From the IMG/VR virus record IMGVR_UViG_3300036790_000211, positions 1-64,000 of that record: DNA of 64,000 bases; one strand, 5' to 3'. This stretch comes from a virus. Below are positions 3,176-63,078 of this stretch, in pieces (the first letter of the stretch is position 1; every line of letters starts with the position of its first letter). The translations under genes and the position numbers were made by a program. The notes beneath the pieces were generated by a model. That model was not told the origin of the DNA and did no database searches. It worked only from the letters and a program-made list of their open reading frames with translations.

Positions 3176-3237
3176 TCGCATGTGCGATGTGATGGCATCA
3201 GGTATGCTCTCGCATGTCGTGTGCTATTGCATCGCAG
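3174..3237 (+). repeat. Palindrome-rich operator or partition site at the parA start
   Basis: The bases around the parA start hold stacked short repeats: TCGCATGTGCGA (inverted arms TCGCA/TGCGA), TCTCGCATG and TGTGCTATTGCATCGCA. Related words recur at 5411-5441, 15972-16002 and 61700-61772. Such sites beside parA are typically bound by the small partner protein to autoregulate the operon or act as the centromere. That role is inferred. Confidence 0.5.
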
Positions 3238-3989
3238 TCACCAACCAGAAGGGCGGGGTCGGCAAGACCGTGATCACGGCCAACGTCGGCGCCGCCCTCG
3301 CCGAGTCAGGGAGGCGCGTCCTCCTCGTCGACCTCGATCCGCAAGGACACCTCACCGCCGGTCTTGGCCTCCGGGAGATTCCCGTCGACGCCGAGATCCC
3401 CACGCTGGCAGGTGCCCTGATGGATCGGAAGGCGCCGGCGCCGCAGCCGATCGAGCGGACAGAGAACCTGTGGGTCGTCCCGAACTGCATGGACCTCTTC
3501 CAGGCCGAGAACCTTCTCCCGGCGCAGCCCGGTCGAGAGTTCCGCCTGAGCCGGGTGATCCCCAAGCTGGGCGAGTACGACTACATCCTCATCGACTGCC
3601 CGCCGAACCTCTCGGTGCTGACGGACAACGCGATCGTCGCCGCGAAGCGCGTCCTGGTCCCGGTCCAGCCGGAGGACTCCAGCATGCGAGCCCTCGACCT
3701 GCTCCTCGGCCAGCTCGCCTCGCTCCGCGACAACCTGGAGATCGAGGTCAACGTGCTCGGCTTTGTGACCAACTTCGTCGACGAGACGAAGGTGTCGCTG
3801 CGGGTCCTGGCCGAGATCGAGCAGTTGCCGCCGCCGAAGCTGGGGCGGATCCGCCGGCGGACCGTGATCCGCGAGGCGTGGGGGAGAGGGATGAGTGTGC
3901 TGGAGCTAGCTCCCCACGCCCCTGTGAGCCACGACTTCCGCAAGATCGCGACCGCCCTGCGCATTCAGTGTGAGGACCACCGCCAATGA
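3180..3989 (+). CDS. parA: ParA partition ATPase
   Basis: A ParA/Soj-type P-loop ATPase that positions low-copy DNA. The deviant Walker A box KGGVGKT is at residues 24-30, followed by LLVDLDPQGHLTAGLG (Walker A') and the Walker B stretch DYILIDCPPNLS. Length (269) fits the short, HTH-lacking type Ib ParA. The start is uncertain: in-frame ATGs lie at 3180, 3192 and 3204, all within a repeat-rich stretch. The last base pairs overlap parB (ATGA). With its small partner it should keep the genome as a plasmid or segregate it. Confidence 0.92.
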   Translation: MCDVMASGMLSHVVCYCIAVTNQKGGVGKTVITANVGAALAESGRRVLLVDLDPQGHLTAGLGLREIPVDAEIPTLAGALMDRKAPAPQPIERTENLWVVPNCMDLFQAENLLPAQPGREFRLSRVIPKLGEYDYILIDCPPNLSVLTDNAIVAAKRVLVPVQPEDSSMRALDLLLGQLASLRDNLEIEVNVLGFVTNFVDETKVSLRVLAEIEQLPPPKLGRIRRRTVIREAWGRGMSVLELAPHAPVSHDFRKIATALRIQCEDHRQ

Positions 3990-43573: not shown

Positions 43574-44329
43574 TCAGACGGCGATCGGTAGGTGCTTGAG
43601 CCAGATCTGGCGGAAGCGAGCGGTGGCGTGGGCGTGGATGCCCTGGTCGCCGCCGTACTGGCGAGCGAAGCGCTCGTACTCAGGCGAGGCGCCGCCTCCT
43701 CCGTAGTGGCGGCAGCGGATCGGCACCACCCAATTGCGGCGCCCGGCGAAGTGAGCGCGGAGGCTCAGGTCGATGTCGTAGAAGTGGTGGATGAACTCCT
43801 CATCCATCCCGCCCAGGCGCTCCCAGAGGCCGCGCTCGCAGCACATGGCGAGGCCATCGAGGACCGCGACCGGGACCGGGCCGGCGGCCTCGTAGCCGTG
43901 GACCTGCCAGTCCTCGAGCGACGAGTAGAACTGGCCCCTGGTGACGTGGCCCATACTCCTTCCGCCGGCGAACCCGACCATGCCGGGGTTGGGGAGCGTC
44001 TTCATGAAGCCGACCAGCTTGCGGTCCCACTCCTCCTCCCTCATGTGGAGGTCGCAGTGCATGGAGGCGAAGAACTCGCCGGTCGCCAGCTCGGCCGCTC
44101 GGTTCATGGCGGCGGCGGATCCGACAACCTTCGGCAGGAAGGTGGCGGACACCTCGACGCCGCGGCCGGACAGGGCCTCGTAGACGTAGTCCGCCTCTCC
44201 GCGGTCCATGCCGTTGAAGCAGATGCAGACCTCGACGTCGGAGCTGGCGAGCCTGACCGTGTTCTCGGCCCACGCCGCTGCCTGATCTGGCCGGCCACAA
44301 CAGGCGGTGATGATCGAGAGCGTGCTCAT
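43574..44329 (-). CDS. Glycosyltransferase family 2-like enzyme
   Basis: A 251-residue GT-A enzyme. It begins STLSIITACCGRPDQAAAW and has an acidic nucleotide-sugar site region (FFASMHCDLHM), GGMDEEFIHHFYDIDLSLR, and HYGGGG. The motif GGMDEEF..D.DLSLR is the typical C-terminal GT2 acceptor segment. Last gene of the cassette; overlaps the methyltransferase by ATGA. Likely transfers a sugar to a virion protein; acceptor unknown. Confidence 0.78.
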   Translation of the reverse strand: MSTLSIITACCGRPDQAAAWAENTVRLASSDVEVCICFNGMDRGEADYVYEALSGRGVEVSATFLPKVVGSAAAMNRAAELATGEFFASMHCDLHMREEEWDRKLVGFMKTLPNPGMVGFAGGRSMGHVTRGQFYSSLEDWQVHGYEAAGPVPVAVLDGLAMCCERGLWERLGGMDEEFIHHFYDIDLSLRAHFAGRRNWVVPIRCRHYGGGGASPEYERFARQYGGDQGIHAHATARFRQIWLKHLPIAV

Positions 44330-44862
44330 GCGACCCCCCAGGCGAGGTAGTCGATGCGCTCGTGGTAGCGGCCGCCCTTCGAGGCGAACCATTCGTCCGC
44401 GACCTGGGTCACCCCGAAGTCGCACCCGGTCCTGCCGTAGTCGTGGAAGGCGATCCATCCACCCCACCGAACCAGCGGCTTCACGAGCTCCAGATCGCGC
44501 CGCACGCTCTCCTCGTCGTGCTGGCCGTCGATGAAGCAGCCGTCGAAGACCGGGACCGGGTGCCGCTCGGCCAGCACCGGGAGGATGTCCTCGAAGCGGT
44601 GCGGAAGGATCGAGACTATGGGCTCGACCTGGTACCGGCGGATGTTGTTCATGAACGAGTCGTACGTGTTGCCGAGGCCGGCGTGGACATCCCCCTCGAA
44701 CCAGTCGACGGTCGACACGCGCCGGGCAGAGGAGGCAAGGACCACGGTCGAGAAGCCGTGGTGCGCGCCCAGCTCGAGGACAGTATTCCCCCGGGCCAGC
44801 ATCGCCAGCTTGATCGCCTCGGCGCGGGAGAGGGCGGTCGGGATGTCGTTGGGGATGATCAC
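44326..44862 (-). CDS. SAM-dependent O-methyltransferase
   Basis: A 178-residue class I methyltransferase of the Methyltransf_24 type. Motif I is VLELGAHHGFSTVVLA, followed by VDWFEGD (strand 2) and CFIDGQHDEESVRRDLE, the FIDGDH-like motif of sugar and small-molecule O-methyltransferases. GTG 44862 overlaps the previous TGA. Encoded between two glycosyltransferases, it may methylate the attached sugar. Confidence 0.72.
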   Translation of the reverse strand: MIIPNDIPTALSRAEAIKLAMLARGNTVLELGAHHGFSTVVLASSARRVSTVDWFEGDVHAGLGNTYDSFMNNIRRYQVEPIVSILPHRFEDILPVLAERHPVPVFDGCFIDGQHDEESVRRDLELVKPLVRWGGWIAFHDYGRTGCDFGVTQVADEWFASKGGRYHERIDYLAWGVA

Positions 44863-45533
44863 CGCCTGGGGCCTCCGTTGAACGGGGTGGTGAAGCTCTC
44901 GGATCCTGGCTCCCCTCCCCACTTGCGGACGTAGTAGCGCTTGTTCGCTTCGAAGCGCTTCCCTCGCCCGGCGATCTCCTCCTCCCGCTCCGGAGTGGTG
45001 TTGCGGGTGGTCGAGCCGTAGTGGTAGAAGGGCGCCCAGCTGGCCCCCTCGTAGCCCGCCAACCTGATGCGGCGGTGCATGTCGTTGTCCTCGAAGTAGG
45101 CGGGCACGAACGCATCGTCGAACTCGCCCACGATCTCGAAGAGGCGGCGGTCCACGCAGTAGCAGGAGAAGTCGGCGGCTCCGATTGCGAGCTCGCGGAA
45201 GTTGCGGTAGAACGGCCTCTCTTCAGGACCCGGCCTCTCTTGGAAGTCGCGGATGTTGCGAGCGGTGACCATGAGAAGGTCCTCGCGCTCGGCCAGCTTG
45301 GCGGCCAGCTCCTCGCCCGTCTCGGGGAACAGGAGGCAGTCGTCATTGGGGACCACGACGTAGTCGAAACCCTCGTCGACCAGCCGGCGGATGCCGTAGT
45401 TCCAGGCCGCGGCCAGGCTCCAGCACATCTGCGAGGTGTCGACGACGAGAAGCCGCGCGCCTTCGGGGATCGTGTGGATCGTCTCGACCAGGCGGGCGCC
45501 GCTCCAGGTGGCGATGCAGTAGGCGATCTTCAT
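44859..45533 (-). CDS. Glycosyltransferase-like protein (GT2/GT-A)
   Basis: A 224-residue GT-A-type protein: MKIAYCIATWSGARLVETIH start, VVVPNDDCLLFPETG (NDD, DXD-like metal site), and FVPAYFEDNDMHRRIRLAGY in the acceptor segment. These are the marks of WcaA/GT2 enzymes. GTGA overlap with the methyltransferase. Confidence 0.78.
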   Translation of the reverse strand: MKIAYCIATWSGARLVETIHTIPEGARLLVVDTSQMCWSLAAAWNYGIRRLVDEGFDYVVVPNDDCLLFPETGEELAAKLAEREDLLMVTARNIRDFQERPGPEERPFYRNFRELAIGAADFSCYCVDRRLFEIVGEFDDAFVPAYFEDNDMHRRIRLAGYEGASWAPFYHYGSTTRNTTPEREEEIAGRGKRFEANKRYYVRKWGGEPGSESFTTPFNGGPRR

Positions 45534-45832
45534 CAGGAGGCCCCCTGCTGCCTGATCAGCCTCGCCCCGGCCTCGAAGACCCGAGCAACGTACTCGCGCT
45601 CGTCCGCCGTGAGGGGCGGGTTCTCGCGGCCGCCGAGGCGATATCCGACGGCCAGGTTCCCGCGCCGGGGATTCTCCTGGTCGGTGGTCATCCAGGCGGT
45701 CACGCTCGCTTCCTGGTCGACGACCTCCGTTGGAAGGGACTCGGTGCCGAGGGATCCCGTCGGGACCGGCCTCGTGTCGTAGCGGACGACGTACTCGTCG
45801 CCTTCCATGCGGGCCGACTTGACCTTCCCCAT
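45533..45832 (-). CDS. Hypothetical protein in glycosylation cassette (99 aa)
   Basis: A 99-residue protein of unknown function (VKSARMEGDEYVVRYDTRPV; WMTTDQENPRRGNLAVGYRL). Overlaps its neighbours by ATGA on both sides, so it is coupled to the glycosyltransferases. Confidence 0.6.
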   Translation of the reverse strand: MGKVKSARMEGDEYVVRYDTRPVPTGSLGTESLPTEVVDQEASVTAWMTTDQENPRRGNLAVGYRLGGRENPPLTADEREYVARVFEAGARLIRQQGAS

Positions 45833-47091
45833 CACAGGTACTCCTCGACGACCTTGAGCACGGAGAGCCCCTGGTCCGCGAGCGTGTGGTTGGCCCGCAC
45901 GTACTCGGCCGCGGCCTGACCCTTCCCGCACCCGCCGCGCCACAGCGCGTAGGCGTCGCGCAGCTGCTTCACACCGTCCTTCTCTGACGGGATCCACCAG
46001 TTGCCGACGTCGCCGTACCGAGACACGTAGTCGGCGCCGAAGCCCCTGGGCGGACCGGCGTACTCCTTGCCCTCGGTCTTGATCGGGTAGGACCACTTCG
46101 GATCGAGGTAGGCGCGCATGCCCGAGTTGTCGGCGCAGACGACCTCCATGCCCGTGCTCATCGCCTCGATCGGCGGCAGCCCGGTCCCCTCACCCTTCGA
46201 GGGCCAGAGAAAGCAGTGGTGCTCGTGGTAGAGCTGGCGGACGTGCTCGGGCGGACTGTCGCCCTGGATCAGCCTGATCCGGCGGTCCTTCAGGGCCTCG
46301 GCGGTGATGTCGTGGATCGCGACGGTGCGCCGTGTCTTGATGGTGAGCTCCCAACTCTGGTCGCCCTCACTGGCCGCTTGGAAGATCCGGATCGCACCCT
46401 GCCAGTTCTTGCGCTCGGTCAGCGCGCCGAGGATGAGTACCCGGAAAGGGCCTTCGTTGGAGCGCTCGGTGTAGGAGAAGTAGTCGGTGTCGACTCCAGC
46501 CGTCAGGACCGAGATGGGGCATCGCACCCCCGCCTTCTTCCAGATCGGCACCTGAAACGGGCTGGTCGTGATGAGGTGATCGCATCGGTTGACCTGCTCC
46601 GCGTGGAAGTCCGGGATCCGGTCGGTCTCGAACTGCGTGATCGCGATCTTGGCGAGGCTCTGGCTGTCCCAGATCATGTCGTCGTAGGGCACCGTCATCG
46701 CCAGGGCGACCTTCGCCGGCAGCGCCGCGTTGTTCGCGTTCCGCTGGGCGATCACGTCGGCGTCGAGGTAGCTCCGGTCGACGAAGTGGCCGGGGTTGCG
46801 CAGGCGCGCGTCGGCACCGAGGAGCCGCATCGCCCGCCAGATGTCGAGGGCGTGCCTCCCGTACCCGTCGATCACGGACAGCGGAGCCCAGAAGTCGAAG
46901 TAGGGGCGTCCGTCGCCAGTCGTCGAGCGGAGCTCGTCGGCCATCTGCGAGAAGTCGAAGTGCAGGGAAGGGCCGCCGTACAGTTCGACAAAGCCCCTGG
47001 GCACCCGCGTGGGGACTCCCTCCTGGAGCGTGATCTCCCCGTAGCGCATCGGTCCCTTCGCGTTGCGCGTGACGGTGATGTAGTCGTCCAT
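45832..47091 (-). CDS. Glycosyltransferase family 4/1 (GT-B)
   Basis: A 419-residue GT-B glycosyltransferase. The C-terminal domain contains VLILGALTERKNWQGAI and the nucleotide-sugar loop LWPSKGEGTGLPPIEAMSTG (EX-type E..GLPPIEAM), with an N-terminal domain (SYLDADVIAQRNANNAALPA onward) for the acceptor. First gene after the capsid gene and a hairpin. Probably adds the first sugar of a virion glycan. Confidence 0.82.
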   Translation of the reverse strand: MDDYITVTRNAKGPMRYGEITLQEGVPTRVPRGFVELYGGPSLHFDFSQMADELRSTTGDGRPYFDFWAPLSVIDGYGRHALDIWRAMRLLGADARLRNPGHFVDRSYLDADVIAQRNANNAALPAKVALAMTVPYDDMIWDSQSLAKIAITQFETDRIPDFHAEQVNRCDHLITTSPFQVPIWKKAGVRCPISVLTAGVDTDYFSYTERSNEGPFRVLILGALTERKNWQGAIRIFQAASEGDQSWELTIKTRRTVAIHDITAEALKDRRIRLIQGDSPPEHVRQLYHEHHCFLWPSKGEGTGLPPIEAMSTGMEVVCADNSGMRAYLDPKWSYPIKTEGKEYAGPPRGFGADYVSRYGDVGNWWIPSEKDGVKQLRDAYALWRGGCGKGQAAAEYVRANHTLADQGLSVLKVVEEYL

Positions 47092-53851: not shown

Positions 53852-54293
53852 TGTTGATCACCACGGCCAGCTGGTTGGGCTGGGAGTTCTGCTGCAACTG
53901 GCCTGCGGCAGTGAACCCGAACATCTCGCGCAGCGAGTCGACGGCCTTGAGACCGACCTCGGCCGACCGCGGGTTGCCGGAGAGGATCCCCCTCTGCAGG
54001 CTGTTGAAGATCAGGTCTATGCGGCCGACGAGGAGCATCTTCATCTCCTCGGCGTCCTCTCGATCGAGCGCCCGCATGTACTTGATGCCGAGGTTCCAGT
54101 ACCAGCTGGGCTCCATCGGCTCCTCGCCGGCGCGGAGCCGCTCGGCGTTCAGCTTGTCCGCGATCTGCCGGGCCCGGAAAGCGCTGATCCTGGCCTCGTA
54201 GACCTTCTTGCCGATCTCGCGCTCCTCCGGAGTCATGATCCGATCGCTGACGGCGGGAACGTTGGAATCGCGGTCGGCTCGGTGTCCGGCCAT
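53649..54293 (-). CDS. Terminase small subunit-like (TerS)
   Basis: A helical protein of about 214 residues upstream of TerL. Features: a helix-rich N-half (KKVYEARISAFRARQIADKL), RALDREDAEEMKMLLVGRID, and NPRSAEVGLKAVDSLREMFG. The protein-like sequence ends near AARIIAEQG (about 53800), after which the frame continues 150 bases in shadow-like sequence to 53649. ATG 54293 overlaps the previous TGA. Confidence 0.6.
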   Translation of the reverse strand: MAGHRADRDSNVPAVSDRIMTPEEREIGKKVYEARISAFRARQIADKLNAERLRAGEEPMEPSWYWNLGIKYMRALDREDAEEMKMLLVGRIDLIFNSLQRGILSGNPRSAEVGLKAVDSLREMFGFTAAGQLQQNSQPNQLAVVINIAPHPDDPTAARIIAEQGQPAPLRSPAPRLLLPAQDHGPGGGDGLGEDVDGAPVVLEAPDRRGEGDS

Positions 54294-55618
54294 CAGGCGG
54301 CCTCCTGGTCGAGAAAGCTCCTCTTCTCCCCCGTCGAGGAGAGGATCGGCAGCGTGCCGGTCACCTCCTGGTATCGGCGGAGGATCAGGTCGCACGACCG
54401 CGGCTCCAACTCCATCAGGCATGCGACGCGCTTGTGGAGGTCGGCGGCTATCAGCGTGGTCCCGGTCCCGCCGTAGGGGTCGAGGACCAGGTCGCCGGGC
54501 CGGGAGCAGGCGAGGATGCAGCGGGCGGGGAGTTCGATCGGGAAGGGTGCGGCGTGCTCGGCGTTGTGCGCCGGGTTCATGTCCCAGACCGAGCACCATC
54601 CCTTGATCTCAGGGGTGTCGTTGAAGAGGAAGTCGGCGCCCTTGTAGAGCCAGTAGATCCGCTCGTCGGAGGGGATGAACATGCGGGCGTTGACGGCCAC
54701 GCCGCCCGGTCGCCGCCACACGATCTCCTGGCGGAAGCGGAACGGACCAGGGAGCCACTGCAGGGGCGAGATGAGCTCCTTGTCTCGGAAGCGGTTCTTG
54801 TGGTTGTAGAACATGCTCCCGCCGTCTACGAGGATCTCGTTCCACTCCAGGAGGGCGGCGCGCTGCTGCTGCTGGTACTCCTCCTCGTCGAGGGAGTCGG
54901 AGTAGGCGACGTTCGCCATCTTGGCCACGAACTTGTCGCCGTCGCGAGCGAATCGGCCTGACGCCTTGAACTGATCGAGGCGCTGGTTGTAGGGCGGGCT
55001 CGTGACGATGAGGCGGGCCTGGCGGCCGTCGAGCAGGCGGGCCAGGTGATCGGCGTCCGTGCCGCTACCGCATAGGAGCCGGTGCGGACCCAGGATCCAG
55101 AGGTCGCCGGGCATCGTGGTCGCGTCGCCTGCCTCGCCGGCGCCGGTCTCGTTGGCCTTGTCGTAGCCGATCGCCGGGGTCTGGGCGTTCTCCGCGATCA
55201 GCTCCGCGAGGAACTTGTCGTCGTAGAGGGAGCCGTCGAGCTCTCCGGTGGAGTCTCGGATCCCGGTGAGCAGCTGCTCGAGGAGCCCATTGTCCATCCG
55301 AGATCCCTCGTGGGCACGGTTCTCGGCGGCCAGGATCTCCCGAGCCTGCGGGTCATCGTGATCGAGTGGAATCCGGTGAACAGCAAACGACCCATCCGGA
55401 TCCGCCTCCATGGCCGACATGTAGGTGTGATTGCCGAAGAGGATGTAGCCGTCCTGGCTGATGCCGATCGCCCGGAACTGGCCGTGAGCGGCGAGGCTGC
55501 GGCCGATCTTGTCCGTGTCGCCGTTGTTCGGGTTGTCCGGGTGCGGGCGCAGGGACGAGAGCGGGACGACCTCGGTCCAGCGGACCAGGTCCTCGGGGGT
55601 GATCTTGATGCGGCGCAT
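54293..55618 (-). CDS. ParB-N / DNA methyltransferase fusion
   Basis: A 441-residue enzyme. Residues about 14-100 are a ParB-like N-domain (VVPLSSLRPHPDNPNNGDTD, ISQDGYILFGNHTYM). Residues about 165-430 are a DNA methyltransferase of beta order: TSPPYN at 206-211 (motif IV) precedes DPYGGTGTT near 380-388 (motif I), typical of N4-cytosine/N6-adenine enzymes. ParB-N plus methyltransferase fusions are known in phages. It overlaps TerS by ATGA and may mark DNA at packaging. Confidence 0.82.
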   Translation of the reverse strand: MRRIKITPEDLVRWTEVVPLSSLRPHPDNPNNGDTDKIGRSLAAHGQFRAIGISQDGYILFGNHTYMSAMEADPDGSFAVHRIPLDHDDPQAREILAAENRAHEGSRMDNGLLEQLLTGIRDSTGELDGSLYDDKFLAELIAENAQTPAIGYDKANETGAGEAGDATTMPGDLWILGPHRLLCGSGTDADHLARLLDGRQARLIVTSPPYNQRLDQFKASGRFARDGDKFVAKMANVAYSDSLDEEEYQQQQRAALLEWNEILVDGGSMFYNHKNRFRDKELISPLQWLPGPFRFRQEIVWRRPGGVAVNARMFIPSDERIYWLYKGADFLFNDTPEIKGWCSVWDMNPAHNAEHAAPFPIELPARCILACSRPGDLVLDPYGGTGTTLIAADLHKRVACLMELEPRSCDLILRRYQEVTGTLPILSSTGEKRSFLDQEAA

Positions 55619-58335: not shown

Positions 58336-58597
58336 CGCCAACTCCTTGCGCCGCCACCTCTGCGGCAGTCGGGGCATCTTCCGGATGGTGCTTTCGACAG
58401 ACAACCCAGGTCGTCCCGTCGACCTGGTGCCGACCGACCCTCCAGCACCCCTTGATGTGGCAGGTGTGGCGCCAGTAGAGCGTGAACGCCGCCCCGAGGA
58501 GGCCGAGATCTCCAGCGACCCCGCTCCACCACGCGTACCAGGGGCCACTCACGTTCGTGATGCCGAGGACGTTCAGGATCGCCCCCAACGCGGCCAT
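58328..58597 (-). CDS. Membrane protein with Cys/His site (89 aa)
   Basis: An 89-residue protein. N-terminal hydrophobic stretches (MAALGAILNVLGITN, WSGVAGDLGLLGAAFTLYW) are followed by HTCHIKGCWRVGRHQVD and VCRKHH, a possible Cys/His metal site. ATGA overlap with the VIT-like gene upstream. Confidence 0.55.
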   Translation of the reverse strand: MAALGAILNVLGITNVSGPWYAWWSGVAGDLGLLGAAFTLYWRHTCHIKGCWRVGRHQVDGTTWVVCRKHHPEDAPTAAEVAAQGVGDA

Positions 58598-59049
58598 CAG
58601 GCGAGTCCTCCGAGATGTGCGGCTCCCCATGCCGCCCCGCCGGCGGCGATGAGCAGGGCAAAGGTCTGGGCGTAGGCGCGGATCCCGGCGTGGTCAGGGC
58701 GCAGATGCGAGATGACGATGGCGGCGGCTCCGATCACAACCGCGGCCAGGGCGATCCCGAGCGCACCCGGGAGAAGTGCGTATGGGAGGGCGGGCGCGAG
58801 CGCTCCGAGCAAGGTTGCTACCCCCATCACTGCGGCCCGCCGGACTCGGCCCGGCCCTCCCCTGTCGCCGAGGTACTGGCCTGACGCCATGCTCACCGCG
58901 TTCCCCGCGGCGCCCGCTGCGCAGGCACCGAGGACGATCCCCGGCGAGGCATGCGTGGCGATCAGGCCGAGCAGCACCCCCATGGTGCCGCTCAGCCCGT
59001 CGAAGCCGCCGAATGCGGCGTCGCCCAGCTCCTCAGCGGTCAGGTTCAC
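58597..59049 (-). CDS. VIT1/CCC1-like membrane protein
   Basis: A 150-residue membrane protein with about four TM segments. The N-terminal half reads DAAFGGFDGLSGTMGVLLGL, then GIVLGACAAGAAGNAVSMAS and GQYLGD, close to the VIT1/CCC1 pattern (a D-G near the start of TM1, S-M-A-x-G-x-Y after TM2), a family moving Fe2+/Mn2+. It is shorter than cellular VIT proteins (about 230) and lacks the long cytosolic Glu-rich loop. GTG 59049 overlaps the previous stop. Confidence 0.6.
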   Translation of the reverse strand: MNLTAEELGDAAFGGFDGLSGTMGVLLGLIATHASPGIVLGACAAGAAGNAVSMASGQYLGDRGGPGRVRRAAVMGVATLLGALAPALPYALLPGALGIALAAVVIGAAAIVISHLRPDHAGIRAYAQTFALLIAAGGAAWGAAHLGGLA

Positions 59050-59339
59050 GCGGCGGCGGCCTCTGCGGGTGCGGGGGTGAAGCTCTGCGCGAACGAGGCG
59101 TCCGGCACGGGCAGGGCGCCCTTGGCCGTCTCCACGACGCGCGAGTTGAGCTCCACCGGCTCCCACTTCCGCGAGGTGCTGTTGAAGACCTCGACCTGCG
59201 GGGCGTCGGCCATTCCGGTCGTGATCGCCCGCGCCGGGATCCCCAGCCCGTCCAGATCGGCGAGCAGGCCGTCGTAGGTGGTGATCACGTCGGTCGCCCT
59301 GACCTTGACGGGGATGTGAACGAAGTCGCTGAACTGCAT
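59046..59339 (-). CDS. Hypothetical protein (97 aa)
   Basis: A 97-residue protein (MQFSDFVHIPVKVRATDVIT; a middle with VEVFNSTSRKWEPVELN; an Ala/Pro tail). Start ATG 59339 follows AAGGAG. Unknown function. Confidence 0.6.
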   Translation of the reverse strand: MQFSDFVHIPVKVRATDVITTYDGLLADLDGLGIPARAITTGMADAPQVEVFNSTSRKWEPVELNSRVVETAKGALPVPDASFAQSFTPAPAEAAAA

Positions 59340-59350
59340 GCGTGTGCTCC

Positions 59351-59692
59351 TTATGGCGAGGTGTCGTCCGCCCGTGTATCGGGAGGACCCCAGAAGAGGT
59401 GCCCGATCAGCGACCCGGCCGCGATCAGGCCAATGCCCATCCACCAGGGATGCGTGTGCCACGTCTGCCTGGTGCGCTGAGTAATGGGCTTCCACGCCGT
59501 CCAGAGGGCGGCGCTCTCGTAGGCGAGGAAGGGGACCGACCCGGCCAGGGCGAGCGATGCTGAGCCGTAGAACGCGGTGTCCTCGGCGGGCGTTGCTTCG
59601 ATCCCCTTCTTCGCGGCGAGCGCAGAGAGCAGGGCCGCGGCTCCCGCAGCAGCTGCGAAGGAGATCGCCCCGGTGGCGTTGCGCTGCCTCAT
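59351..59692 (-). CDS. Membrane protein (113 aa, about three TM)
   Basis: A 113-residue membrane protein with hydrophobic segments near 8-28 (GAISFAAAAGAAALLSALAA), 44-65 and 89-104 (WWMGIGLIAAGSLIGHLFWG). ATG 59692 overlaps the previous TGA. Confidence 0.55.
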   Translation of the reverse strand: MRQRNATGAISFAAAAGAAALLSALAAKKGIEATPAEDTAFYGSASLALAGSVPFLAYESAALWTAWKPITQRTRQTWHTHPWWMGIGLIAAGSLIGHLFWGPPDTRADDTSP

Positions 59693-60054
59693 CAGCACCG
59701 CCTCCCGTCGCTGCGCCACCGACAGCGCAGCCCCACCCCTTCGTAGGCTGCATGGAACGTCAGGTCGTCGAGGTGCCAGAAGAGATGTTTGCCGCCGCGC
59801 TCGATGTGTAGCAGCCAGTAGTGAGGCTCGAGCACGAACGTCGGCGTTTCCCACGGCTCGATCCACAGGTCGCTATCGGTAGACAGAGATGTCCTCGGGG
59901 CGGTGGTGTAGCCCTTGCAGATCGGGAAGGCCGACACGGCCGCGGTCCCTCTCCTGCAGAAGCCCAGGAACTCCCGGATGTCCTCGCCGTTCTTGCCGTC
60001 GAAGTAGATCGCATCGACCTCCGGGGACTGTCGGAGCCGGAACTTGCTCCTCAC
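59692..60054 (-). CDS. Hypothetical protein (120 aa)
   Basis: A 120-residue protein: FRLRQSPEVDAIYFDGKNGE, WIEPWETPTFVLEPHYWLLH and HLFWHLDDLTFHAAYE. The last resembles small phage proteins of unknown function. GTG 60054 overlaps the previous TGA (GTGA). Confidence 0.6.
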   Translation of the reverse strand: MRSKFRLRQSPEVDAIYFDGKNGEDIREFLGFCRRGTAAVSAFPICKGYTTAPRTSLSTDSDLWIEPWETPTFVLEPHYWLLHIERGGKHLFWHLDDLTFHAAYEGVGLRCRWRSDGRRC

Positions 60055-60401
60055 GGCTTGACGTCCTCCTTGGCGGGGATTAGAAGCAGGATCTGGCCGT
60101 CGTACTCGCCGTCGAAGTCGTCGAGCAGGGCAGCGATCCCGTGGAGCTTCATCTGCTCGGGCTTCCACTCCTTCGGGTCTTGGTGCGGCGCACCCTTGGC
60201 GCGGAAGAAGGCGAAGTCCGGCTTGTGATAGCCGGCCGTGTCCCACTCCTCGAGGGATGCCTGCTCCTTGGACTCGTCTCGCTCGCTGAGGATCCCGACC
60301 TGGAATCCCGCCTTGCGCAGCCCCTTGGCGATCGGGCCCAGGAGCTCCGGGAAGGCCAGCGCGGTCCCGTCGAGGTCGAAGGCGACGCGTGCGGCGCTCA
60401 T
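60051..60401 (-). CDS. HAD-like phosphatase
   Basis: A 116-residue HAD-fold protein with motif I FDLDGTA (DXD) at residues 8-14, GILSERDESKEQ in the motif II position (a Ser), and LLDDFDGEYDG at the C-terminus (motif IV-like DD). It is short, without a full cap, like phage 5'(3')-phosphatases. ATGA overlap with the small TM gene. Confidence 0.7.
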   Translation of the reverse strand: MSAARVAFDLDGTALAFPELLGPIAKGLRKAGFQVGILSERDESKEQASLEEWDTAGYHKPDFAFFRAKGAPHQDPKEWKPEQMKLHGIAALLDDFDGEYDGQILLLIPAKEDVKP

Positions 60402-60538
60402 CGGCCCATCGCCTTGATCACGACCTCCCCCACGGCGAGCACGAAGACCATGAGCAGGCAGGCGACGCCGAGGACCTTGATCGCCAGGTCGAGGGCGGCG
60501 TTTACCCGCGTCAGCCGCATGCGAGTGCGCAGCTTCAT
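60398..60538 (-). CDS. Small single-TM protein (46 aa)
   Basis: A 46-residue protein: basic start (MKLRTRMRLTR), one TM (LAIKVLGVACLLMVFVLAV), and a short tail. Both ends overlap neighbours by ATGA, which supports a real gene. Confidence 0.5.
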   Translation of the reverse strand: MKLRTRMRLTRVNAALDLAIKVLGVACLLMVFVLAVGEVVIKAMGR

Positions 60539-60759
60539 CGGACGTGGACGTAGCCGAGGAGGACCAGGATCACGACGACGGCGACGGCGACGAGGGCCAG
60601 TGCGGCGACCCGCGTCGCGTTCTTGACGATCGCCTCGGCGGCCACATACAGGGCGACCATGGCGAGGACCACAGCGATGCCGAGGAGGGCGAATGGAGCG
60701 GTCACGCAGACCAGCAGCAGGAAGGCCGCAGACCGGCCGACCGAGCCCCAGCCTTTCAT
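60535..60759 (-). CDS. Small membrane protein (74 aa)
   Basis: A 74-residue protein with two TM segments (SAAFLLLVCVTAPFALLG and VAALALVAVAVVVILVLLG). Start ATG 60759 overlaps the previous stop. Function unknown. Confidence 0.55.
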   Translation of the reverse strand: MKGWGSVGRSAAFLLLVCVTAPFALLGIAVVLAMVALYVAAEAIVKNATRVAALALVAVAVVVILVLLGYVHVR

Positions 60760-60869
60760 AGCCAGCCCCACAGGGCGCGGCCGAGGATCACGACCCCAGC
60801 GACCGCGACGGCACCGATGAAGACCAGACCCCAGTAGGCCGTCCAGTGTTTCCGGGAGATCTTGCTCAA
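60756..60869 (-). CDS. Small membrane protein (37 aa)
   Basis: A 37-residue protein starting on TTG 60869 (AAGGAGGCGGC just upstream, overlapping the VTC stop). One TM segment: YWGLVFIGAVAVAGVVILG. The strong ribosome site decides the TTG. Confidence 0.5.
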   Translation of the reverse strand: MSKISRKHWTAYWGLVFIGAVAVAGVVILGRALWGWL

Positions 60870-61417
60870 GCCGCCTCCTTCGCGGGGATGGATCGGAGTG
60901 CCCACCCGAGCTTCGAGCTCCAGTTGGGCTTGCTCAGGTGGAGCCAGGTGGGCGGCTTGCCCATGGTCTTGGCCTCGACGATGTGGTGCTTGAGCTGGGC
61001 CGCGGGCTTGCGGTCCTTCTCGCCGGCGAAGCTGCGCACGTTGCGGTCGACGGTGATGCGCACGCCCTCGTGCTCCCACTCGGTGCGGTGGTAGCGGACG
61101 ACGGCCAGGGGGGTGAAGCCCTGCTTGGCGATCTCCGCCCGGTTGGCTCGGGAGCGCTCCTTGTGGACCGTCCGGCCGACCTTGGTCTTCTCCTCGTAGA
61201 ACCAGGGACCGGCGCCGTTGTAGCGGCGTAGGCGGCAGTTGACGCCGGGCTTCCCTGGGTGCGCGAGGTAGACCGTCTGGACGTGGTAGCTCCGCGTCCT
61301 CGCCCGGCCTCTCAGGTCTTTGAGGAGGCTCTGGGCGCGGTCAGGCGCAACGCGCCACCGGCGCTCCCGGCGGACGAACAGCTCCTGAAAGAGCTGAACC
61401 TCACCCGGGTTGGGCAC
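60866..61417 (-). CDS. VTC-domain (polyphosphate polymerase-like) protein
   Basis: A 183-residue protein matching the VTC domain over its length. Landmarks in order: RRERRWRV, TVYLAHPGKPGVNCRLRRYN, FYEEKTKVGRTVHKERS, AVVRYHRTEWEHEGVRITVD and HIVEAKTMGKPPTWL. VTC proteins are tunnel enzymes that make polyphosphate from ATP; the R/K/E pattern lining the tunnel appears present. It is shorter than cellular VTC (about 240). GTG 61417 has no ribosome site; a short ORF (61401-61469) overlaps it. Confidence 0.75.
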   Translation of the reverse strand: MPNPGEVQLFQELFVRRERRWRVAPDRAQSLLKDLRGRARTRSYHVQTVYLAHPGKPGVNCRLRRYNGAGPWFYEEKTKVGRTVHKERSRANRAEIAKQGFTPLAVVRYHRTEWEHEGVRITVDRNVRSFAGEKDRKPAAQLKHHIVEAKTMGKPPTWLHLSKPNWSSKLGWALRSIPAKEAA

Positions 61418-61636: not shown

Positions 61637-61673
61637 AAGGCCCCGTCCAGGGGAGAAACCTGGACGGGGCCTT
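61637..61673 (-). terminator. Intrinsic terminator between accessory units
   Basis: A 15-bp perfect stem: AAGGCCCCGTCCAGG (61637-61651) and CCTGGACGGGGCCTT (61659-61673), loop GGAGAAA. On the minus strand it is followed by TCCTTTG. It separates the DUF2637/zinc-protein unit from the VTC unit. Confidence 0.8.
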
Positions 61674-61699
61674 GGTCGTGTCGCGGGTGTAGCAGTCCG

Positions 61700-61772: not shown

Positions 61773-61977
61773 CGGGGATCGGCTCCAAGCCGTTATCCCT
61801 GCGGCAATCGTTGATGTAATCGCGGACTCCGGCGCGCCCCCAGCACTCGGGGCACGCCTTCTCGGCGATGGCCCAAGAGGGCTCCTGGCGGCCCGTGGCG
61901 CGATGGATCTCGACCACCAGCTCGAGGCACGGCTTCCACTCGTGGCAGAACTCGCAGACGTGATCGACGAGATTCAT
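61759..61977 (-). CDS. Cys-rich zinc-type protein (72 aa)
   Basis: A 72-residue protein with CEFC (residues 8-11), CLEL, CPECWGR and INDC, a likely zinc site, with a Glu/His-rich body. ATG 61977 overlaps the DUF2637-like stop (ATGA). Confidence 0.55.
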   Translation of the reverse strand: MNLVDHVCEFCHEWKPCLELVVEIHRATGRQEPSWAIAEKACPECWGRAGVRDYINDCRRDNGLEPIPECVM

Positions 61978-62708
61978 GCGGCTTCTCCCTCGGCCTGCAG
62001 GGAGGACCGGACGCGCTGGACGGTGGAGGTGCCGATGCCCAGATGCTTGGCGATCGCGGCGTCGCTCTTGCCGGAAGTCCACGGCTGGCCCAGGGCCTCC
62101 GCGGCCAGCTGGGCGGCGCCCGGCTGGGTGGGTCGGGCGGTGTTGCCCTTGTCGGTCTGCCCATCGCCCACCTGCCCAGACTCGTTGCCCTTGGGCAGCC
62201 GCTTGGGCGGATCCTTGGGCAGGTCCTGGTCGCGGGTGGTGGGCGGTTGGGTGGGCTGCGCCTGCTCACGGTTGGGCAGGTGGTCAGCGATCGCCTGGGC
62301 AGGGTTCCACTTCGCATGCCGGCCGTGGAGCATCCAGTACCAGCAGCCCAGGGCGAGGAGCGGGGGGAACGTGTGGGCGTAGAAGGCGAGCGGGTTGCCC
62401 ACGTGGTGGAAGACGTTGAACAGGATCGAGGTGCCCGCGCAGAAGGCGGCGAGTGCCCAGGCGCCCCAGCTGGGCGTGTTGCGGGTGGCCGACTCTCGGG
62501 CGAGGAACACGGCGACGAGCTCGCCCAGGTCGGTGATCGCTCCGACCCCGCGGGCCTCCCAGAGGGTGTAGCCCAGGGTCGAGACGCTGGCGACCTGGGC
62601 GAAGTAGCTCACGCCCATGGCTATGACGGTGATCGCCCAGACCCCCAGCTCGGCGGAGTAGCTACGCCAGGTCGTCTTGCCGACGACGGCGCGCTTCGGC
62701 TTGCTCAT
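61974..62708 (-). CDS. DUF2637-like membrane protein with C-terminal HTH
   Basis: A 244-residue protein. Residues about 20-130 contain about four hydrophobic segments (LGVWAITVIAMGVSYFA; ALAAFCAGTSILFNVFHHV; PPLLALGCWYWML) as in DUF2637 (spread-type) proteins of actinobacterial mobile elements. After a Pro/Gln/Lys linker, residues about 210-235 form a helix-turn-helix (SDAAIAKHLGIGTSTVQRVR). ATG 62708 has AGGAGAGA upstream. A membrane-tethered regulator or spread protein is plausible. Confidence 0.7.
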   Translation of the reverse strand: MSKPKRAVVGKTTWRSYSAELGVWAITVIAMGVSYFAQVASVSTLGYTLWEARGVGAITDLGELVAVFLARESATRNTPSWGAWALAAFCAGTSILFNVFHHVGNPLAFYAHTFPPLLALGCWYWMLHGRHAKWNPAQAIADHLPNREQAQPTQPPTTRDQDLPKDPPKRLPKGNESGQVGDGQTDKGNTARPTQPGAAQLAAEALGQPWTSGKSDAAIAKHLGIGTSTVQRVRSSLQAEGEAA

Positions 62709-62756: not shown

Positions 62757-63059
62757 TCAATCTTCGATGCCCAGCGCGGCCTTCTTCTCCCGCTCGTACC
62801 TGGCGACGGCAGTGGCCTTGTCGATAGCGTCGATCTCGGCTCGGCGCTGCTCCGCTCTCGGCAGGAGCTCCGGGACCGAGTGCTCCTCTCCCCTGCGCCG
62901 GCGGACCCAATCGGAGTCTGCGGCCCACTCATCCCAGTTCTCGAGCGCCAGCCGGACCTCAGCAGCATCCGGGCGCCCGTTCTCCTGCGCCCGCTTGTGC
63001 AGTCGCTCCCGTAGCGCGGTTGGCACTCTCACTATCATGCGGTTGTCGTTGTCTGCCAT
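62757..63059 (-). CDS. Ribbon-helix-helix (Arc-like) regulator
   Basis: A 100-residue protein (ATG 63059; ATG 63065 alternative). The first 48 residues fit an Arc-type RHH DNA-binding domain (NRMIVRVPTALRERLHKRAQ, then ENGRPDAAEVRLALENW). A charged C-terminal helical segment follows. It is the first minus-strand gene, directly behind an inverted repeat that is probably its own operator. Confidence 0.75.
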   Translation of the reverse strand: MADNDNRMIVRVPTALRERLHKRAQENGRPDAAEVRLALENWDEWAADSDWVRRRRGEEHSVPELLPRAEQRRAEIDAIDKATAVARYEREKKAALGIED

Positions 63060-63078
63060 TGGCATGCATTGTATGCCA
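63060..63078 (-). promoter_or_regulatory. Operator-like inverted repeat at the RHH gene start
   Basis: TGGCAT (63060-63065) and ATGCCA (63073-63078), separated by GCATTGT, straddle the start of the RHH regulator. RHH proteins bind such repeats, so autoregulation is likely. Confidence 0.5.

Follow-up and report, generated by a model that had tools for sequence, protein, structure and literature searches.

A compact VTC-family tunnel protein and a VIT1/CCC1-family transporter core in one operon of an uncultured tailed phage

The phage and its operon

IMGVR_UViG_3300036790_000211 is an uncultured virus record of 70,511 bases with a GC content of about 67%; the window analysed here, to which all phage positions refer, is its first 64 kb (64,000 nucleotides). 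Leftward genes at 27-54 kb encode terminase, portal, capsid, tape measure and endolysin, and rightward genes encode ParA and DnaB, identifying the record as a tailed phage. The terminases of the phages listed are at most about 27% identical to its own, and searches of IMG/VR with portal, DnaB and capsid, which reach close relatives only, detected no related virus. An actinobacterial host, and with it the name "actinophage", is plausible.

Several genes outside the operon deserve mention. Persistence as a plasmid is possible, given a ParA-type ATPase (3180-3989, plus strand) and a ribbon-helix-helix protein (62757-63065, minus strand) that resembles partition-associated families. Beside the terminase, the product of the minus-strand gene at 54293-55618 joins a ParB-like domain to an N4/N6 DNA methyltransferase, as judged from Pfam N6_N4_Mtase (104 bits) and from the PHROG families for DNA methyltransferases and ParB-like proteins. 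Within the structural module, between capsid and tail genes, lie a glycosyltransferase-like gene (45832-47091; phrog_2170) and two neighbours (44326-47091 in all, minus strand), with a possible role in virion or DNA glycosylation.

The operon under study is described in Table 1. The VTC gene stands at its head, behind a strong terminator-like hairpin just upstream, which has a U-rich tail and was not listed by the terminator consensus scan; three tiny membrane proteins come next. From the VTC gene on, successive genes overlap start-to-stop with the single exception of an 11-base gap, in agreement with the tightly coupled minus-strand run described in an earlier, sequence-only reading of this DNA, which mentions neither the hairpin nor the three small membrane ORFs. 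Seven genes separate VTC from VIT.

Table 1. Features of the minus-strand operon and of the hairpin preceding it.
Position	Strand	Feature	Basis
61637..61674 (approximate)	-	Strong intrinsic-terminator-like hairpin, 15 bp, then UUUCCUUU	RNA fold -32.5 kcal/mol, z -6.6
60866..61417	-	Compact VTC-family triphosphate tunnel protein P0001, 183 aa	Pfam, hhalign, tunnel model, conserved columns
60756..60869	-	37-aa protein, one predicted membrane helix	Sequence, hydropathy
60535..60759	-	74-aa very hydrophobic protein, two to three predicted membrane helices	Sequence, hydropathy
60398..60538	-	46-aa protein, one predicted membrane helix	Sequence, hydropathy
60051..60401	-	Small HAD-like protein, 116 aa	DxDGT motif; Pfam Acid_phosphat_B 19.9 bits, cut-off 27; phrog_4256 E 0.0023
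59692..60054	-	120-aa protein	No Pfam match; weak phrog_36935
59351..59692	-	113-aa membrane protein	No Pfam match
59046..59339	-	97-aa protein	No Pfam match; stop overlaps VIT start
58597..59049	-	VIT1/CCC1-family transporter core P0002, 150 aa, five helices, no metal-binding domain	Pfam VIT1, 6iu3, bacterial VIT alignment, model

The TTG start of the 37-aa ORF overlaps the VTC stop and is preceded by AAGGAGG, and the starts of the 74- and 46-aa ORFs each overlap the stop of the preceding gene; none of the three matches a family in Pfam or PHROG. The HAD phosphatase previously placed between VTC and VIT is no more than plausible as a small HAD fold: a DxDGT motif and a later DD motif are present, but the Acid_phosphat_B score lies below the cut-off. 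Just upstream of the operon, a minus-strand gene (61974-62708) encodes a membrane protein that carries a helix-turn-helix at its C terminus and is weakly similar to DUF2637 and to phrog_733 "excisionase"; its product is possibly a membrane-bound regulator.

A minimal VTC-family protein

The P0001 frame begins with GTG and displays phage-like codon use. The initial proposal that it encodes a VTC domain was supported by the match to Pfam VTC (PF09359; 28.8 bits, E 1.2e-6, cut-off 23), CYTH staying under its own cut-off (19.3 bits against 23.2), and by a profile-profile comparison (hhalign) with six VTCs, five bacterial and yeast Vtc4, which gave a probability of 95.5% and an E of 1.3e-8. Searched against the PDB at E<=1, a profile built from P0001 and bacterial VTCs, dominated by the bacterial rows, matched only Vtc4, Vtc2 and Vtc3 and no CYTH enzyme. 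The tunnel fold expected for such a domain was also recovered: a single-sequence AlphaFold model of moderate confidence (pTM 0.59, mean pLDDT 62) has 8-9 strands in tunnel order, a fold shared with the yeast Vtc4 polymerase domain (PDB 3g3q/3g3r). A fold search of the PDB with this model gave, at E of about 1e-4, matches to Vtc3 and Vtc4 as well as to other tunnel enzymes; an archaeal triphosphate tunnel enzyme and adenylate cyclases were among the matches. Based on these sequence profiles and the predicted structure, P0001 is a VTC-family triphosphate-tunnel domain.

P0001 is the smallest VTC in this comparison. Two absent parts, the stretch following the second strand and the helical insert in the middle, account for its being shorter than every other VTC in the set, and it leaves little room for a C-terminal plug helix. 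Relative to yeast Vtc4 it is about 100 residues shorter and has neither an SPX domain nor membrane helices of its own; the bacterial VTCs, to which it is 21-27% identical, have 222 aa or more. Part of the shortened middle is common to P0001 and the compact bacterial VTCs. The latter, 222-245 aa long, form an actinobacterial subfamily in which the central insert is shortened (loci L133, 4093-5816; L134, 3880-4614; L135, 4090-4827), and the L133 member adjoins DUF4956 and a Cthe_2159 carbohydrate-binding protein.

P0001 keeps all of the 18 columns that are invariant among six bacterial VTCs, and so has them in common with the bacterial proteins encoded next to DUF4956 (e.g., Pseudobutyrivibrio WP_243143622.1). 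In the alignment with Vtc4 (chain numbering), R62, R64, K77, K86, R111, R120, E148, K150 and K169 of P0001 correspond to R264, R266, K281, K294, R361, R373, E426, K428 and K458, respectively; the exception among the catalytic residues is K200, which is replaced by Arg20. The residues mutated to inactivate VTC in yeast, R264, R266 and E426 (PMC9911596), thus all have counterparts in P0001, and the C-terminal Ser-Lys of VTC is retained as Ser168-Lys169.

A further distinction is offered by the four-Glu acidic patch, present in tripolyphosphatases and absent from Vtc4 (PMC4641920). By our own matching of positions, AtTTM3 Glu171 has Lys150 as its counterpart and Arg16 takes the place of the first Glu in ExExK, a pattern as in the VTC polymerases (PMC4641920). 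Of the three positions mapped, two are therefore basic (R16, K150) and the third keeps its glutamate (E18), the same combination as in bacterial VTCs. Judged from the alignment, this pattern leans towards the VTC type, which does not in itself prove polymerase activity.

Which reaction may P0001 catalyze?

We give about an even chance to the reading in which P0001 is a minimal VTC-type tunnel enzyme that makes polyphosphate from ATP, the downstream VIT being an independent exporter. P0001 would bind ATP-metal in its tunnel and, working in the direction of a polymerase, not of a hydrolase, would lengthen a polyphosphate chain in the infected cell's cytoplasm by adding to it the terminal phosphate of ATP. 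The benefit to the phage would lie in a polymer acting as a phosphate/ATP sink or as a polyphosphate signal, and the VIT would export Fe2+/Mn2+ without regard to P0001. Counted against polymerization are the replacement of K200 by Arg20, the retention of Glu18, the missing helical insert, the lack of DUF4956 and the moderate quality of the model. We know of no phage VTC with an established activity. Nor do the sources consulted show polymerase activity for a bacterial VTC.

In yeast the membrane partner of VTC is Vtc1 or the enzyme's own helices, and where the neighbours of bacterial VTCs were read, DUF4956 (in some cases recognized by eye) adjoins, sometimes with CotH. For P0001 neither DUF4956 nor CotH was found: a family search of the flanking genes detected neither, and a search of the whole record no DUF4956, the latter a result of little weight as that search also overlooked the VTC identified by hmmscan. 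It is conceivable, although improbable, that the three coupled tiny membrane proteins replace DUF4956/Vtc1 and constitute, with the minimal VTC, a self-contained membrane-linked polyphosphate polymerase; in that event polyphosphate would be made or moved during infection. Phages commonly carry small membrane genes, so a VTC-partner role for these ORFs, whether as anchors of P0001 or in passing on the chain, is offered only as a hypothesis.

A possible but more doubtful explanation is that P0001 is a tunnel enzyme of VTC ancestry that carries out another reaction, the hydrolysis of tripolyphosphate, NTPs or other triphosphorylated molecules, perhaps removing a signal or altering nucleotide pools. 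Tunnel enzymes of this fold catalyze diverse reactions (PMC4641920), CYTH also scores, the fold search mixes Vtc3/Vtc4 with the archaeal triphosphate tunnel enzyme and the cyclases, the acidic patch retains Glu18 and the DUF4956 partner was not found. On the other hand, the VTC score exceeds that of CYTH, the patch glutamates that hold a second metal are replaced by Lys150 and Arg16, and the C-terminal Ser168-Lys169 is that of VTC. We consider it improbable that P0001 is a non-enzymatic binder of polyphosphate, a nucleotide or a second messenger (e.g., a sponge against a host defence signal). Its very small size, the lack of a detected partner and its place among other small uncharacterized genes of an accessory-type operon would suit such a role, whereas the metal-binding Glu148 and the full phosphate-binding basic set are more than binding alone needs.

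A VIT-like transporter core without the metal-binding domain

The P0002 frame also begins with GTG and has phage-like codon use, with a weaker frame score than that of the VTC frame. Its attribution to the VIT1/CCC1 family was confirmed: Pfam VIT1 (PF01988) matched with 32.9 bits (E 7.3e-8, cut-off 28.1) and EgVIT1 (PDB 6iu3) with an E of 3.5e-6 in two collinear stretches. As to the VIT topology expected, the model contains five helices at low confidence, and a fold search with it was uninformative. The membrane part is 30-39% identical to actinobacterial VITs in the alignment, and Asp43 and Met80, which belong to the transport path (PMC10794610), have counterparts in D17 and M54.

P0002 differs from classical VITs in that the alignments reveal no cytosolic metal-binding domain, the segment between helices 2 and 3 being missing, and in that the position of EgVIT1 Glu72 is occupied by Gly. 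Plant VTLs are VIT forms that likewise lack this domain and have Gly at the Glu72 position (PMC10794610), and the bacterial VITs aligned here carry Gly there too. Actinobacteria have open frames of about 184-200 aa that match P0002 continuously; these are compact VITs, and forms devoid of the domain apparently occur in bacteria too. P0002 is therefore not a "classical VIT1" but still falls within the wider family, and by family membership it is likely an Fe2+/Mn2+ exporter.

VTC and VIT as neighbours

The sequence-only reading had linked the two proteins as a single system manipulating host polyphosphate and metal stores, as in acidocalcisomes. Both genes do belong to the same coupled operon, and polyphosphate binds metals. 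Nevertheless, a joint function is very unlikely: seven genes intervene, the phage VIT lacks the metal-binding domain, and VTC and VIT1 were neighbours in none of the 30 actinobacterial genomes searched for both, a small test given that these genomes were chosen for having VTC and are related to one another. VIT1 was present in 29 of them (28 over the cut-off), and by coordinate comparison the closest pair on a shared contig lay about 44 kb apart, with a VIT match below the cut-off. Many early operons of phages bring together accessory genes that are unrelated to one another.

VTC and VIT in other phages

VTC and VIT genes are very rare in phages. Pattern searches, a method that finds only close relatives, gave no relative of P0001 or P0002 in IMG/VR, phage and plasmid records and none of P0001 in GTDB contigs; among 396 actinobacterial genomes no convincing relative of P0001 was found. 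Three VTC motif patterns run over IMG/VR returned 38 distinct loci, and among those read out there was one genuine VTC, of the ordinary bacterial type, on a 6.6-kb metagenome contig (L106); the others were chance matches or other genes. VTC matches were also found in human fecal "Bacteriophage sp." records and may be bacterial. The VIT in "Acinetobacter phage MD-2021a" is probably contamination, as its surroundings include dusB, rffE and other bacterial genes.

No canonical VTC matches a PHROG, and the literature search found no phage VTC. A VTC has nonetheless been annotated in phages before: the best viral fold match to P0001 in BFVD (E 6e-6) is A0A6J5KVM0, "PolyPPase_VTC_like", from an uncultured Caudovirales phage, which has 538 aa and is 18% identical to P0001.

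Implications

Phosphorus genes have been reported on phages from metagenomes, namely ppk1/ppk2 (PMC13188868) and ppx (PMC10987575), and a phage VTC-type enzyme would be another route to change host phosphate. A VTC domain of 183 aa is useful for finding what the fold needs for polymerization. The function of bacterial VTCs is poorly described, and a small member without a membrane part of its own provides a convenient test case.
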